Positions 15,007 through 24,519 of a DNA stretch of 51,426 nt are shown here, piece after piece. The stretch spans positions 1 through 51,426 of the forward strand of contig NZ_JMLH01000017.1 of assembly GCF_000686665.1 (NCBI RefSeq), in the 5' to 3' direction. The notes under the pieces are model-generated. The model was given only the letters and a program-made list of their open reading frames with translations, was not told where the DNA came from and did no database searches. A program made the translations under genes and the position numbers. Source of the DNA: Thomasclavelia saccharogumia DSM 17460. Lineage in GTDB: Bacteria; Bacillota_I; Bacilli_A; Erysipelotrichales; Coprobacillaceae. Within the stretch, counting starts at the first letter, position 1. Each line of letters opens with the position of its first letter.

Positions 15007-15212
15007 AGAGATTTCTTGTTTTAGATTTAGAAAGAATATGGAAGAATTGATTTTATTGATTAATACAATGATTTCAATGCTTCCTTTTTTATTTCAATAA
15101 TGGGTTAAAATTTTATGCTTAAAAAGCATTAAATGCATTTATTTTAAGTATTAGACATAATTAATATTAGTATTTAAAATAAAAGTAGATAAAAAAGGGG
15201 TGCTTATTTGTA

Positions 15213-15554
15213 ATGAATATTCAAGATTTAACAAAATGTTATTACATTTTGCAGGAGGATATATTTAAATTTAAAAAATTAGGATTATTGGATAATGTAT
15301 CTACTATTAATGGTCAGATGGAGTTTGATGACGATGACGTTCGTCAAGTAATAGAAATGGTCAATTTAATGAAATTGGGTTTGGATGATCAAGAACTGGT
15401 GAAATATTACACCAATAAAGATATACAAACAGACATTTTAAAAAAAGTTCGAGTTTTGATCCTCGAACAATTACATTCGTATCAAAAGAAACTAGATGAT
15501 ATAGATTATATGATTTATGAAAAAGAAAAATTATGGCAAAAGGAGAAGATATGA
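15213..15554 (+). CDS. MerR-type transcriptional regulator
   Basis: A 113-residue protein. The N-terminal part (YYILQEDIFKFKKLGLL, then FDDDDVRQVIEMVNLMKLGLD) matches a divergent MerR winged helix, and a long helix (ILEQLHSYQKKLDDIDYMIYEK) forms the usual antiparallel dimer coil. There is no metal-binding Cys pattern. The start follows AAAAGGGG at a somewhat long spacing. It overlaps the next gene by ATGA, so they are translationally coupled. The most attractive target is the 19-bp-spacer promoter at 18148, the architecture that MerR proteins untwist. Confidence 0.75.
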   Translation: MNIQDLTKCYYILQEDIFKFKKLGLLDNVSTINGQMEFDDDDVRQVIEMVNLMKLGLDDQELVKYYTNKDIQTDILKKVRVLILEQLHSYQKKLDDIDYMIYEKEKLWQKEKI

Positions 15555-16585
15555 TACAAAAGATTATAAAAATTATTTTAGCTGTTTGTTTTGTATTTAC
15601 CATAACAGCCTGTCAAGTTCAAGAAGACACATTAGATAATCATCAGATCGATGCTGCAGAAAATAAGACAAAAGTACTTATAGCTTATTTTAGTTTATAT
15701 GGAAATGCTGATTATAATGAAAATACAGATGCTTTAACTTCAGCAAGCATTGTCATTGATAAAAATCAACGTCTAGGGATAACAGAATATGCTGCTAATT
15801 TGATTCAAGAAAAAACTGGTGGCGATAAGTACTTGATTGAGGTAGATGAAAAATATTCTGATGATTTTCAAGAAGTTATTGATTAAAATCATCGTGAGCA
15901 AAATCAAGATATCTTACCTCAAATAAGTGGACAGGATATACAAATTGACGAATACAATATTATCTTTATTGGTTATCCTGTATGGGCGACAGGAATCCCG
16001 CAAGTAATTCGCTTGTTTATGGAAAAATATGATCTAAGTGAAAAAACAGTGATTCCATTTTGCAGCCATAATGGATATGGAAGCGGGAACAGTTATGACG
16101 AAATTCAGGAATATTCAAAAAGCAAAAATGTATTAGAAGGAATTGCAATTGATTCTCAAGAAATCCTTGAATCTGAAAGTCAAATAGAACAATGGCTTGA
16201 TGATCTTGATTTAAATATCAATGATAGTAGTCAAATAAGTATACAAATTGGTGATTATCAATTAGATGGACAATTAAATGATAGTCAAATGGCATAACAA
16301 TTAAAAACGATGTTACCACTTACTGTTTCAATGGTTCATTATGGCAATAGAGAATTTTATGGCACGATTGATAAAACAATAGCGGTACAAGGTAGAGGAC
16401 AACTTTCTTTTGAAAATGGTGACATTACTTATTGTCCCACAAATAACTCACTTGCTATTTTCTATAATCAATCAGATAATCCTAATTTAACGATGAAAGT
16501 CTATGTTATAGGAAAAGTAACATCAGATTTAAAAATATTTCATGAACTCTCTTCAAAAGAAGATATAACATTTAATACAAAATAG
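15551..16585 (+). pseudogene. Secreted flavodoxin-cyclophilin-like fusion, two in-frame stops
   Basis: One frame of 345 codons begins with a lipoprotein signal (VFTITAC) coupled to the MerR gene. It then encodes a flavodoxin: KVLIAYFSLYGNADY, an insertion DALTSASIVI, GITEYAANLI, YNIIFIGYPVWATGIP and KTVIPFCSHNGYGSG. A cyclophilin-like domain follows: QIGDYQLDGQLNDS, then LKTMLPLTVSM, REFYGTIDK, NGDITYCPTNNSLAIFYN. TAA stops at 15884-15886 (VID-stop-NHRE) and 16295-16297 (QMA-stop-QLK) break it without any frameshift. Both positions suit Gln, so CAA-to-TAA changes explain them. Flavodoxin plus cyclophilin-like fusions are known in gut Firmicutes. Confidence 0.78.
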
Positions 16586-17908: not shown

Positions 17909-17913
17909 ATAGT

Positions 17914-17952
17914 AAAAGATGAAGAATTTATAATTGATCTTCATCTTTTGTT
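17914..17952 (+). terminator. Terminator of the flavodoxin operon
   Basis: AAAAGATGAAGA and TCTTCATCTTTT form a 12-bp stem around about 12 bases, followed by a short T-rich stretch. Confidence 0.85.
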
Positions 17953-18147
17953 ACATTAAAGATAGTTTTAGTATCTGATTTAACTATGTAAAACTTTTTG
18001 TAAAGATTTTGTTGTTGATTTTATGATCAAAAATTTTTTATAAATCAATAAATTTAGAAAAATATATTGCTAATCTTATAGCAGATTAAAAATTTATGTG
18101 TTTTATAAGTTGTGTAAATAAAATTTTAAAAAAATTGAAAATAGTAC

Positions 18148-18178
18148 TTGACCGATTCTTACAATCGGTTGATACAAT
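18148..18178 (+). promoter_or_regulatory. MerR-type promoter with 19-bp spacer and operator
   Basis: TTGACC (-35) and TACAAT (-10) are 19 bases apart, two more than optimal. The spacer carries the perfect inverted repeat ACCGATT-cttac-AATCGGT (18151-18169), which begins inside the -35 box. This is the classic architecture activated by MerR-family regulators that distort the spacer DNA. It drives the operon starting at 18218. The MerR gene at 15213 is the nearest candidate regulator. Confidence 0.85.
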
Positions 18179-18217
18179 TACATTGTAGTAAAAGAAAGCA
18201 AGGAGGTAAATATAAAG

Positions 18218-18946
18218 GTGAAAAAACAAAAAGCACAATTATTTAATAATAAATTTATAACTACTGATCCAGAATTTGTAGATATTATTAAAAACTTTTT
18301 ACAAGAAGATGTCTTGAATGCTGGTAATTTATCAGAGAAAGAGAGAATGCTATGTATTTTATCAGTCCTATTAGGCTGTCAAGGAATGGAAGAATATTGT
18401 CATATGCTTCATGTAGCATTAGATTCAAATATTGATCCTGTTGCTATTAAGGAAACTGTTTACCAAGCAGCTGCTTATTTAGGCATTGGGAGAATATCTG
18501 ATTATTTATTAAAGACGAATGAAATTATGAAAGAATATGGAATTTCTTTACCATTACCAGCTCAGAGTACAACAAATAGAGAATCAAGATTTGAAAAAGG
18601 GCTTGCAAAACAAGTGGAATTATTTGGTTTGCAAATGGCTGATAGACAAAAAGATACAGGACCAAGGCAAAATATTAATCGTTGGCTAGCTTCTAATTGT
18701 TTTGGAGATTACTATACGAGAAATGGACTTAATGACCGAGAAAGAGAAATGATAACTTTTTGTTTTATTTTAGCACAGGGTGGTTGTGAAAATCAGTTAA
18801 GAGGACATACTGCGGGAAACTTTGGGGTAGGAAATGATAAAGAAAAACTGTATCAGGTTGTTGAACAATGTATGCCTTATATTGGCTATCCTCAATCATT
18901 AAATGCATTGGCTATTATTGATGAAGTAGCTTCAAAATTAAAATAA
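18218..18946 (+). CDS. Carboxymuconolactone decarboxylase-like protein
   Basis: A 242-residue protein made of two CMD-type helical repeats (PF02627). The first spans LSEKERMLCILSVLLGCQG to about AAYLGIGRISDYL. The second runs from LNDREREMITFCFILAQGGC through QLRGHTAGNFGVG to CMPYIGYPQSLNAL. The CxxC redox pair of AhpD is absent; single Cys residues and the RGH motif are kept. In Bacillus subtilis the CMD-like yraC belongs to the AdhR (MerR/NmlR family) carbonyl-stress regulon with an alcohol dehydrogenase, and here a CMD gene, a dehydrogenase and a MerR-type promoter again occur together. The GTG start follows AAGGAGG. It is first in the operon. Confidence 0.88.
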   Translation: MKKQKAQLFNNKFITTDPEFVDIIKNFLQEDVLNAGNLSEKERMLCILSVLLGCQGMEEYCHMLHVALDSNIDPVAIKETVYQAAAYLGIGRISDYLLKTNEIMKEYGISLPLPAQSTTNRESRFEKGLAKQVELFGLQMADRQKDTGPRQNINRWLASNCFGDYYTRNGLNDREREMITFCFILAQGGCENQLRGHTAGNFGVGNDKEKLYQVVEQCMPYIGYPQSLNALAIIDEVASKLK

Positions 18947-18959
18947 TGGGGATAGTGTA

Positions 18960-19643
18960 ATGAAGTATCAAAGAGGAAGGAAAATGATATTAGTTATATT
19001 AGGTGTCATTATTTTGGTTCTTGCTGGTATCGTTATTTATTGTATGACAGGAAGTTCTTTGCATTATGAAACACAAAACATTGTTAAAGGTGAGAAAGAT
19101 TCAAGATCGATCATTATCTATTTTTCAAGATCAAATGCTTTAGATTATGATGATGAGATCGATGTTAGTACCCATGCAAGTTTAAATTTAAAAAATGATC
19201 ACATAGAAGGTAATACAGAAATAGCTGCTAAGATGATTCAAGAGAAGACTGGCGATGATTTATATTCAATTCAAGTTTCAAAAAGCTATAGATCCCCATT
19301 TCTTGCTACCTCTTTAAGAGCCTGGTTAGAAAAATATTTAAATATTAAACCAGATTTATCAAACATGCCAGAAAATTTAGATGATTATGATGTTATTTAT
19401 TTAGGATATCCTATTTGGTGGTACAAAGAACCTATGGCAGTTGATACATTTTTAGAAAACTATGATTTAAGGGGAAAAACAATTATTCCATTTTGTACAA
19501 GCACAAGTTCATCGATTGATGAAAGTGTTCAATCAATACAAAAAATATGCCCTCATTCTCATATACTTGAAGGGGTAAGAATGGAACAGGCAAATGAAAA
19601 AGAAATAGATGAATGGTTAAAAAAAATAAATATTGGAGGATAA
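18960..19643 (+). CDS. Membrane-anchored flavodoxin
   Basis: A 227-residue protein with an uncleaved N-terminal helix (MILVILGVIILVLAGIVIY) and an outward-facing flavodoxin domain. SIIIYFSRSNALDYDDE is followed by the insertion VSTHASLNL and NTEIAAKMI. The FMN-stacking part is YDVIYLGYPIWWYKEPMAVDTFLE, and the last loop is TIIPFCTSTSSSI. It lies between the CMD-like gene and the alcohol dehydrogenase with 13- and 4-base gaps, so all three share the MerR-type promoter. This implies that the membrane flavodoxin and the dehydrogenase work in the same response. Confidence 0.88.
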   Translation: MKYQRGRKMILVILGVIILVLAGIVIYCMTGSSLHYETQNIVKGEKDSRSIIIYFSRSNALDYDDEIDVSTHASLNLKNDHIEGNTEIAAKMIQEKTGDDLYSIQVSKSYRSPFLATSLRAWLEKYLNIKPDLSNMPENLDDYDVIYLGYPIWWYKEPMAVDTFLENYDLRGKTIIPFCTSTSSSIDESVQSIQKICPHSHILEGVRMEQANEKEIDEWLKKINIGG

Positions 19644-19647
19644 AACG

Positions 19648-20808
19648 ATGAATACATTTAATTATGAATTAAAAACAAAAACTTATTTTGGAAAAGGTGC
19701 AGCAAAACAAAATTTACCAGCTGAATTAGCAAAAGCAGGACATACTGTGATGCTTGCTTATGGTGGCGGATCAATAAAAAAGAATGGAATTTATGATGAA
19801 ATAAAAGAAATCTTAGAAAATGCGGGAAAAGAAGTTGTCGATTTTTCAGGTATTATGCCTAATCCTACATATGCAAAAGTGCAGGAAGGGGCTAAATTGG
19901 CTAAAGATAAAAAAGTTGATTTTATTTTAGCAGTTGGCGGAGGCTCTGTAATTGACTGCTGTAAAATTATTTCAGCTCAAGCAAAATTGGATCAGGATAT
20001 TTTTGATTATGAGTATGTTGATAAAAAATTTCCTACTACTGGTATCTTAATGGGAGCAATCGTTACAGCGAGTGGAACTGGTGCTGAAATGAATGCCGGA
20101 GCAGTCATTACACATGAAGAAAAAATGTGGAAAGGACCGATCGTTGGAACACAGGCCGATTTTGCAATATTAGATCCCTGGTATACCAAATCATTACCAA
20201 TGAAGCAGGTTATCTCAGGGGCATTCGATACATTAAGTCATTGTATGGAGACATATTTAGGAACTCCTAGAATTCCTAATTTATCAGATCGAATCAACGA
20301 ATCAATTATGCAGTTAGTTATTGAAAATATGCGAAAGTTGTTAGTTGATGAATATGATATGGAAGCAAGAAGTGAATTGATGTGGGCTTCTGCGATGGCA
20401 GAAAATGGTATTTTAAAAATTGGAAAGGTTACTGATTTTCAAGCACATCAAATAGAACATCAGTTAGGAGCATATACAGATTGTAATCATGGACAGGGGC
20501 TTGCAATCATTCATCCAGTATTATATCGCCATATGTACAAAGAAGGATTGGAACAATTTGTAAGACTAGCCAAAGAAGTTTGGCATGTTGATCCAGCTGA
20601 TAAAACAGCTGAAGAAATAGCATTAGCAGGGATCGATGCTTTAACTAATTTTATTAAAGAGATGGGACTTCCTGCAACATTAAAAGAAATTAATATTGAT
20701 GATGTTGAGATGCTAAGAAAAGTAGCTGATACTTGTAATTTAACAGCTGGATGTGCAAAGAAATTTGAAAGAGATGAAATCTTTGAAATTCTTAAAGAAT
20801 GCTTATAA
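19648..20808 (+). CDS. Iron-containing alcohol dehydrogenase (butanol dehydrogenase type)
   Basis: A 386-residue group III alcohol dehydrogenase that reduces aldehydes with NAD(P)H. The Rossmann half has DFILAVGGGSVIDCCKII, and the metal half has GAFDTLSHCMETYLG and DFQAHQIEHQLGAYTDCNHGQGLAI, which supply the Asp and three His ligands. It resembles YugJ/BdhA-type enzymes. GGAGG precedes the ATG used, four bases after the flavodoxin gene; an upstream in-frame start at 19633 overlaps that gene. Within a MerR-controlled operon a role in detoxifying reactive aldehydes is likely. Confidence 0.93.
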   Translation: MNTFNYELKTKTYFGKGAAKQNLPAELAKAGHTVMLAYGGGSIKKNGIYDEIKEILENAGKEVVDFSGIMPNPTYAKVQEGAKLAKDKKVDFILAVGGGSVIDCCKIISAQAKLDQDIFDYEYVDKKFPTTGILMGAIVTASGTGAEMNAGAVITHEEKMWKGPIVGTQADFAILDPWYTKSLPMKQVISGAFDTLSHCMETYLGTPRIPNLSDRINESIMQLVIENMRKLLVDEYDMEARSELMWASAMAENGILKIGKVTDFQAHQIEHQLGAYTDCNHGQGLAIIHPVLYRHMYKEGLEQFVRLAKEVWHVDPADKTAEEIALAGIDALTNFIKEMGLPATLKEINIDDVEMLRKVADTCNLTAGCAKKFERDEIFEILKECL

Positions 20809-20814
20809 TGACAG

Positions 20815-21494
20815 TAAAATAAAGAAAAAGAAATATCTAAGATTTCTATTTGTTTTATTAATATGCTTATTTTTAGGGTGTAATATTCAAAATAATGAAT
20901 CAGTAGATGAAAAGGATGATGATCTGACCATTCTTGCAGATCAATCATATATTATGCAGGAATTAAACATAAGTAGGGATAGTCAACAAATATATGGTTA
21001 ATTATATAGACCTCTGTATATTGATAAGAAGGTGCCAATAATTATTTATTGTCATGGTCTTAGTGGTTATCATGAAAGTGGTGTTCAGTATGCTAAGGAA
21101 CTTGTAAAATTAGGCTATGGGGTTTATTGTTTTGATTTTTGTGGTGGTGGATTATGCGCAGACTTTGTTTAAGAGTACTGATGATATTCCAGATAATTAT
21201 TATCATCTATGGATGAGGGTAGGAAAAGTCTATTTTGAAAAATTGTTGAATTATGATATTTATGATGAAATATCTTCTTATGACAATGATGTTCTTATCA
21301 TTCATAGTGATGCTGATAGTGTTGTATTGCTATCTTATTAAAAAAAAGCAGAGAATGTTTATTTATCTGCTCAATTAAAAGTGATTGAAGGAGCAGACCA
21401 TGGGTTTTATGATTATAATTTTAAAGAAGCAATGAGTTATATAGAAAATTATTTAGTTGAAAATATATATGCTGAAGATAACTATAAATATTGA
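20815..21494 (+). pseudogene. Alpha/beta hydrolase lipoprotein, broken
   Basis: A lipoprotein signal (FLFVLLICLFLGC) lacks an in-frame ATG. The frame then runs to an ochre stop at 20999-21001 (QIYG-stop-LYRP, where Gln suits) and on through PIIIYCHGLSGYHESG and YGVYCFDFCGG. After that about 90 residues, including the nucleophile elbow GxSxG, are deleted. The frame changes and resumes as DDIPDNYYHLWMRVGKVYFE, DVLIIHSDADS and VIEGADHGFYDY with another stop at 21339-21341. The serine nucleophile is gone, so it is inactive. It was probably part of the preceding operon. Confidence 0.78.
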
Positions 21495-23230: not shown

Positions 23231-23902
23231 ATGAAAAGGAAATTGATGAGAAGCTTGGATATTATGATGTTTGTTTTAGTATTATTATTGATGGCTTTTC
23301 ATTTGACGGGTCAACAATTACATGAATTGTTAGGAACAATTACTCTTCTTTGTTTTATTGTTCATCATATATTGAATTGGAAGTGGCATCAAAGCATCTT
23401 AAAAAGACGTTATCAATTGCCAAGAAAATTAATGACTTTTGTAAATGTTATTCTTTTTATAGATGTAATGTGTTTAGGAATAAGTGGAATGTTGATGTCT
23501 AATTATGTTTTTCGTTTTATTCCTTCATTTGGATCGATTTCATTGGCTAGAAGAATTCATATGATTGCTTCATATTGGGGATTTGTTATGATGTCTGTTC
23601 ATTTGGGATTCCATTGGCATATGATCCTCATACCAATAAAAAAGAAGTTTGATAATCTATCTTATTATACACAGTTAATTTTTTATAAATTTTTACCAGT
23701 TGTTATATGTTTGATAGGGTTGTTCTTTTTTATAAAAAATAGAATCTATATGTATATGTTTTCGATAGAAAATTTTGTATTTTTTGATTATCAAATGAAT
23801 TTTTTAAATTTTATTAAAGAATATCTTTTCATTAGTTTTTTATATATAGGAATAGGATATATAATACTAAAAAAAATAAGGGATAGAAGGAGTAAAGAAT
23901 AA
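23231..23902 (+). CDS. DUF4405 cytochrome-b-like membrane protein
   Basis: A 223-residue membrane protein. The first half has four helices with His residues in positions expected for haem b: H24, H31, H45/H46 and H53, then H110 in ARRIHMIASYWGF and H124, H128, H130 in SVHLGFHWH. This is the DUF4405 pattern, a cytochrome b561-like fold proposed to pass electrons across the membrane to flavoproteins. A second, more hydrophobic part adds two helices. GGTGG precedes the ATG. The stop overlaps the start of the Fe-S flavoprotein by one base, so they are coupled and may form a cytoplasm-to-membrane relay. Confidence 0.85.
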   Translation: MKRKLMRSLDIMMFVLVLLLMAFHLTGQQLHELLGTITLLCFIVHHILNWKWHQSILKRRYQLPRKLMTFVNVILFIDVMCLGISGMLMSNYVFRFIPSFGSISLARRIHMIASYWGFVMMSVHLGFHWHMILIPIKKKFDNLSYYTQLIFYKFLPVVICLIGLFFFIKNRIYMYMFSIENFVFFDYQMNFLNFIKEYLFISFLYIGIGYIILKKIRDRRSKE

Positions 23903-24519
23903 TGAAAGTTATTTTAATAAATGGCAGTCCCAATGCAAGAGGCTGTACATATACAGCACTGCAGGAAGTTGAAAAGGTTTTAAATGCTGAAAATATCAAT
24001 ACAGAAATTATTCAGGTAGGAAATAAAGATATTCGCGGCTGTATTGGATGTCGTCAATGTAAAAAAATAGGAAAGTGCATTTTTGATGATTATGTTAATG
24101 ATGTAGCAGCAAAATTTACAGAATGTGACGGTATCGTGATAGGATCACCTGTTTATTTTGCTTCTGCCAATGGAACCCTTGTTTCTTTTATTGATCGTTT
24201 GTTTTATAGTAGTCAGTGTGATAAAACAATGAAAGTTGGCGCAGCTGTAGTTTCAGCAAGACGAGGAGGCTGTTCAGCAACATTTGATGAATTAAACAAA
24301 TATTTTACAATTTCTTCGATGCCGGTTGTTTCTAGTCAATATTGGAATAGTGTTCATGGATATACTCCTGAGGATGTAAGAAAAGATGCAGAAGGACTAC
24401 AAACGATGCGGGTACTGGGGAAGAATATGGCATTTTTAATAAAAAGTATCCAGCTAGGGAAAGAAAAGTATGGACTTCCTGAAAAAGAAAAAAGTGTGCA
24501 TACTCATTTTATAAGATAG
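23902..24519 (+). CDS. Iron-sulfur flavoprotein (Isf-type, flavodoxin fold)
   Basis: A 205-residue cytoplasmic NADPH-dependent FMN reductase-like protein. ILINGSPNARGCTYTAL is the FMN phosphate loop. CIGCRQCKKIGKC (Cys 47, 50, 53, 59; CX2CX2CX5C) is the compact cysteine motif that binds a 4Fe-4S cluster in Isf proteins, and GIVIGSPVYFASANGTL follows. Isf-type proteins move electrons between ferredoxin and other acceptors. TAATG overlap with the DUF4405 gene implies that it feeds or drains that membrane cytochrome. Confidence 0.9.
   Translation: MKVILINGSPNARGCTYTALQEVEKVLNAENINTEIIQVGNKDIRGCIGCRQCKKIGKCIFDDYVNDVAAKFTECDGIVIGSPVYFASANGTLVSFIDRLFYSSQCDKTMKVGAAVVSARRGGCSATFDELNKYFTISSMPVVSSQYWNSVHGYTPEDVRKDAEGLQTMRVLGKNMAFLIKSIQLGKEKYGLPEKEKSVHTHFIR

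Follow-up and report, generated by a model that had tools for sequence, protein, structure and literature searches.

A 31-bp element at positions 18148-18178 of the window (the whole stretch of 51,426 nucleotides analysed here, contig NZ_JMLH01000017.1 of Thomasclavelia saccharogumia DSM 17460) is very probably the operator-promoter of an operon encoding a carboxymuconolactone-decarboxylase-type protein (CMD), a flavodoxin and an iron-containing alcohol dehydrogenase (Fe-ADH). It would belong to an NmlR-like MerR regulon, in which the copy of the regulator encoded on contig 47 of the same genome acts in trans. Genome comparison shows that the operator forms a class, that this class has a 19-bp geometry and that it pairs with this MerR subfamily.

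The promoter and its operon

The element reads TTGACCGATTCTTACAATCGGTTGATACAAT, and its parts are listed in Table 1 together with the neighbouring features. The original prediction of a TTGACC-N19-TACAAT promoter with a perfect 7-5-7 inverted repeat was borne out by the letters themselves, by a compensatory change in a sister strain and by recurrence in relatives. The left arm of the dyad overlaps the -35 box, and the dyad centre lies 7 bp from the 3' end of this box, the same distance as reported for CueR/CadR-type MerR promoters (PMC5045206). The latter also share with the window an abnormally long spacer (19-20 bp) and a left arm overlapping TTGACC (PMC5045206, PMC9909328). Such a spacer is typical of MerR promoters (PMC9909328); its length is 19 bp both in the window and in each of the 32 operators that were aligned. 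Unlike the CueR and CadR systems, however, the window operon is devoid of metal-handling genes and gives no sign of metal sensing.

Table 1. Positions of the promoter, the operon and related genes (window coordinates unless a contig is given)
Feature	Position	Strand	Remarks
Diverged MerR-like gene	15213-15554	+	family associated with LysR/MerR-like/CMD
Terminator-like hairpin	17910-17953	+	z = -3.2; between the 15213 operon and the CMD promoter
MerR-type promoter	18148-18178	+	-35 TTGACC 18148-18153; 19-bp spacer; -10 TACAAT 18173-18178
Operator dyad	18151-18169	.	ACCGATT-CTTAC-AATCGGT; perfect 7-5-7 repeat, centre 18160
Ribosome-binding site of the CMD gene	18200-18206	+	AAGGAGG; from the sequence
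CMD gene	18218-18946	+	242 aa; two carboxymuconolactone-decarboxylase domains
Membrane-anchored Flavodoxin_4 protein	18960-19643	+	227 aa
Fe-ADH	19648-20808	+	best NCBIfam model PRK15138, below its cut-off
FMN reductase	23902-24519	+	homologues 51-81% identical
NmlR-like MerR gene	contig 47, 17703-18062	minus	134 aa; leader carries ACCGGTT-type operator

The predicted content of the operon was likewise confirmed, its three products being assigned to CMD, Flavodoxin_4 and Fe-ADH. The CMD gene starts with GTG at 18218. For the Fe-ADH, the ATG at 19648 is a likelier start than the TTG at 19633, since the latter falls inside the ribosome site. Upstream, the hairpin closes the preceding MerR-like/flavodoxin gene set. 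The closest relatives of the CMD outside strain VE202-01 are found in Lachnospiraceae-type genomes (65-74% identity), whereas other members of the window's family reach 53% at most.

In the ~12 kb between 12190 and 24519, Flavodoxin_4 paralogues (lipoproteins or membrane-anchored proteins) are densely clustered with ApbE, cytochrome b-like and FMN reductase genes, which suggests an extracytoplasmic flavin/electron-transfer system. Homologues of the FMN reductase at the end of this region directly adjoin an NmlR-like MerR in relatives, as apparent targets; no operator of this class was found before it in the window's genome. An alpha/beta-hydrolase-like gene (20753-21490) is broken by two TAA stops and a frame change and misses ~60 residues; it is intact in VE202-01 (317 aa).

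Conservation of the operator

Under a permissive definition, 18148-18178 is the sole such site in the window. In dinucleotide-shuffled versions of the window the mean number of such sites is 0.25, and 23% of the shuffles contain at least one; taken alone, the site is not beyond chance and by itself proves little. These local statistics are insufficient to exclude that the repeat and the 19-bp spacing arose by chance in an ordinary promoter. This reading is nevertheless ruled out by conservation and deserves almost no credence: a compensatory change occurs in VE202-01, and homologous operons of other families and genera are also preceded by the full 31-bp element. The arm change in the sister strain and the further occurrences of the element, within the order as well as in Lachnospiraceae, make the promoter convincing, and we consider it confirmed at the level of sequence.

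The locus of VE202-01 (a Clostridiales bacterium; BAHP02000054.1, genome G038) is syntenic and ~93% identical to the window. Its promoter reads TTGACCGGTTCTTACAACCGGTTGATACAAT: the arms ACCGATT/AATCGGT of the window are replaced by ACCGGTT/AACCGGT, with A to G in one arm and T to C in the other, while the operator ACCGGTT-CTTAC-AACCGGT keeps the dyad, the spacer and the -35 and -10 boxes. By contrast, the 80 bp immediately 5' of the promoter are diverged and rich in indels. The paired change is compensatory, as expected with the dyad under selection. The nearest contig-47-type regulator of VE202-01 has 60% identity, and its own promoter carries an operator variant with 3 mismatches.

The perfect form, ACCGATT-N5-AATCGGT, occurs once in the 3.14-Mb genome of the window, at 18151-18169. 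Other near-matches to the repeat exist in this genome, but the promoter-context search recovered none of those in the inspected stretches of contigs 81, 83 and 13. A first pattern, TTGACC-N13-GGT-N3-TANNNT, gave 13 sites in 43 family genomes, six of them with matched or near-matched inner arms. One of these sites heads a cytochrome-b/flavodoxin/flavodoxin/Fe-ADH (65%) operon in G036; another precedes a MATE-like transporter, and a third a gene whose start resembles that of EFR1-type ferredoxins. Matches to ACCGGTT-N5-AACCGGT at G037:C1:3207901, G025 and G018:C4 lie inside genes or a terminator-like hairpin and were discarded.

Across 315 genomes of the order, a refined pattern recovered 39 sites, distributed over 31 genomes, compared with 9 for the reversed pattern. 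Twenty sites had zero mismatch; 8 of these served to draw the pattern and the remaining 12 provide independent support. The 31-bp element thus recurs in ~30 order genomes and in Lachnospiraceae, mostly as a divergent promoter beside an NmlR-like MerR gene (about two dozen sites), and the gene on the opposite side of the operator encodes an Fe-alcohol dehydrogenase, an aldo/keto reductase (AKR), an FMN reductase, a flavodoxin or a CMD. Of the 31 genomes that encode the regulator, 23 have the operator, as do 8 of the 284 that lack the regulator (Fisher p ~1e-21), a co-occurrence that largely reflects physical adjacency.

In the 32 aligned operators the dyad extends to a 9-1-9 arrangement, ACCGGTAGT-W-ACTACCGGT, with changes on both sides in 4 of the 9 dyad pairs. 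The covariation score is 0.141 against 0.080 for shuffled alignments (reached in 0 of 500), and any slid register gives 0.055 or less, so the repeat has a fixed centre inside the spacer. The window operator has the centre CTTAC where most have GTWAC; one inner position differs (GTTAC to CTTAC).

The same repeat was indeed found before CMD genes of relatives, where it is conserved. Genomes from outside the order thereby confirm the pairing independently. In Blautia pullistercoris (L297), a MerR 73% identical to that of contig 47 is divergent to a CMD(68%)-FeADH(64%)-flavodoxin operon, with TTGACCGGTAGTTACAACCGGTTGATACAAT between them; GGTTGATACAAT is common to this operator and that of the window. 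Roseburia sp. (L332) and Catenibacillus scindens (L330) show the same pairing, the contig-47-type MerR of the three (73-80%) being divergent to CMD with TTGACCGGTAGTWAC.. operators between. UBA7110 (L296) and Parachristensenella (L290) have the order MerR / operator / FMN reductase-CMD-Fe-ADH, and in S26M_St_56 the operator heads CMD-Fe-ADH-flavodoxin-cytochrome b.

The contig-47 protein as candidate regulator

The window's genome encodes 8 MerR_1 domains above cut-off. Its three small MerR genes have distinct leader repeats, and only that of contig 47 matches the operator. The contig-47 protein is 73-83% identical to the MerRs standing beside CMD(-Fe-ADH) operons in Blautia, Roseburia, Catenibacillus and others. 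Its wider relatives (47-83% identity) are divergent beside operators of the same class, next to genes for AKR, Fe-ADH, FMN reductase, EFR1-type or histidine-phosphatase proteins. In the window's genome, the contig-47 gene is unlinked to the CMD operon; the simplest reading of these arrangements is that the module was inherited and the regulator became unlinked afterwards. The leader repeat of contig 47, TCCGGTTATGATAACCGGT, is located 3' of a TATAAT, which suggests that the gene is autorepressed.

The protein carries a MerR winged helix-turn-helix domain (PF13411, 55.4 bits, above cut-off), and the closest solved structures are H. influenzae HI_0186 (5e01) and 5d8c. In an ungapped alignment its C56 falls on the cysteine of 5e01/5d8c, at the position of the NmlR/AdhR sensor cysteine, and none of C25, C56 and C60 varies among 26 members of the regulator class. 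Cys54 of H. influenzae NmlR and Cys52 of B. subtilis AdhR have been named as essential in a review (PMC4776306). On the NCBIfam NmlR equivalog the contig-47 protein scores 72.7 bits, under the cut-off of 175, and for this reason we treat it as a related subfamily rather than as NmlR.

The 15213 gene and other candidates

A small MerR-like gene had been correctly spotted upstream, ending 2.6 kb before the promoter, and its product was originally proposed to bind the repeat and activate the operon. This assignment was not supported. The 15213 protein is a MerR homologue by profile comparison (hhalign probability 98.8%) and its gene has the same orientation as the operon, but the protein has no Pfam MerR match and lacks the recognition and wing residues R35, N39 and R41, which are replaced, as well as C25, C56 and C60, all invariant in the regulator class of the operator. 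A functional link of its family with CMD is likely, since a CMD gene lies within 4 kb at 21 of the 24 listed places in the family, within LysR/MerR-like/CMD or flavodoxin modules. These genes are preceded, however, by a conserved AGTATTAGACAT promoter motif instead of the TTGACCG operator. Furthermore, in L297, L330 and L332, the close relatives with the operator and the clearest synteny, the CMD operon abuts an NmlR-like MerR. It is with a canonical MerR, of the contig-47 type, that the operator pairs. The 15213 protein is, therefore, probably not the regulator of 18148-18178; we regard such a role as unlikely, and the gene probably belongs to a parallel regulatory layer.

Several observations concern this second layer. 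At 15110-15195, 5' of the MerR-like gene and likewise before its family homologues, the AGTATTAGACAT element often comes with a TGCTT/AAGCA inverted repeat, and is probably a LysR-type site belonging to the family of the LysR encoded nearby (12190). In some relatives (L067, L072, L116), the stretch that separates the promoter from the MerR-like gene contains a hairpin and then a T-run, reminiscent of an attenuator or a terminator in a leader. The flavodoxin-like gene at 15533-16585 has two in-frame TAA stops, with no frameshift, where VE202-01 has CAA; the gene is intact there (350 aa) and otherwise 93% identical.

In four family genomes (G036, G041, G004 and G018) the operator is present with no close member of the NmlR-like MerR subfamily, and another MerR may read the element there; two of them, G004 and G041, carry the nearest relatives of 15213. 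By extension, the site of the window could be read by a third regulator, for instance a different small MerR or one that the draft assembly lacks. We hold this to be quite improbable: the MerRs of contig 14 and contig 48 have their own, distinct leader repeats, and the genome is rated 100% complete. The contig 14 gene, divergent to another Fe-ADH, was ruled out by its ACCTAA/TTTAGGT repeat, and the NmlR-like gene of contig 48 by its ACTTAGAGT/ACTCTAAGT repeat. The contig 48 gene (L023 / L076) is the genome's best NmlR match (98 bits) and has a perfect TTGACTTAGAGTAAACTCTAAGTTGTATACT promoter. It appears broken, since its open frame begins within the DNA-binding domain, the N-terminal DNA-binding part having apparently been lost.

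Comparison with known systems

The proposed analogy with the AdhR carbonyl regulon holds only in part. What stands is that the likely regulator belongs to a class that is closest to NmlR/AdhR, and that in B. subtilis a CMD gene, yraC, is likewise under AdhR control (PMC4776306). NmlR of H. influenzae and AdhR (YraB) of B. subtilis resemble the contig-47 protein in family, in size (~130 aa) and in the aligned sensor cysteine, and redox/aldehyde genes lie downstream in their regulons as well. On the other hand, the contig-47 class differs from them by the extra invariant C60 and C25, by its sub-cut-off NmlR score, by the type of its operator and by its targets (Fe-ADH, flavodoxin, FMN reductase and AKR).

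The LysR/MerR-like/CMD modules of the same family likewise combine CMD and flavodoxins with a MerR homologue that is related to 15213, but they have the AGTATTAGACAT promoter motif in place of TTGACCG-N13-GGT and form a separate regulatory layer. As for the enzymes, the Fe-ADH of the window may be likened to the E. coli YqhD/DkgA aldehyde reductases; it is of the PRK15138 (YqhD) type, and such enzymes are paired with aldo/keto reductases in relatives. It falls, however, below the PRK15138 cut-off, and the E. coli YqhD/DkgA system has an AraC-type regulator, not a MerR.

Proposed mechanism and significance

We infer that a dimer of the contig-47 protein occupies the dyad. With no signal, the over-long spacer would hold the -35 and -10 boxes out of register. 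An electrophile (aldehyde, dicarbonyl or quinone) would modify the conserved cysteines C56, C60 and C25, and the modified protein would kink the DNA, letting RNA polymerase contact the two boxes at once. Reduction or removal of the electrophile would then fall to the Fe-ADH, flavodoxin and CMD proteins. The nature of this putative inducer is deduced from the cysteines of the regulator and from the downstream enzymes.

More broadly, we lean towards the existence of a distinct electrophile-sensing MerR subfamily, with an invariant C-x3-C next to the NmlR cysteine position, in Erysipelotrichales-type and Lachnospiraceae-type gut anaerobes. It would act through a single, highly conserved 31-bp operator-promoter on a redox detoxification set of CMD, Fe-ADH, AKR, FMN reductase, membrane flavodoxins, cytochrome b and EFR1-type ferredoxin. 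Within the genus of the window, the regulator would have become separated from its operon, beside the second LysR/MerR-like CMD/flavodoxin layer. A literature search combining MerR, CMD, flavodoxin and alcohol dehydrogenase found no paper.

These results also illustrate that a MerR-like gene nearby need not be the cognate regulator. What began as a guess about a promoter has become a regulon open to testing across common gut Firmicutes, in which the regulator is named, the operator is defined and a sensor motif can be identified. Such a regulon would account for the way in which strict anaerobes perceive reactive carbonyls or quinones and switch on flavodoxin/Fe-ADH chemistry.
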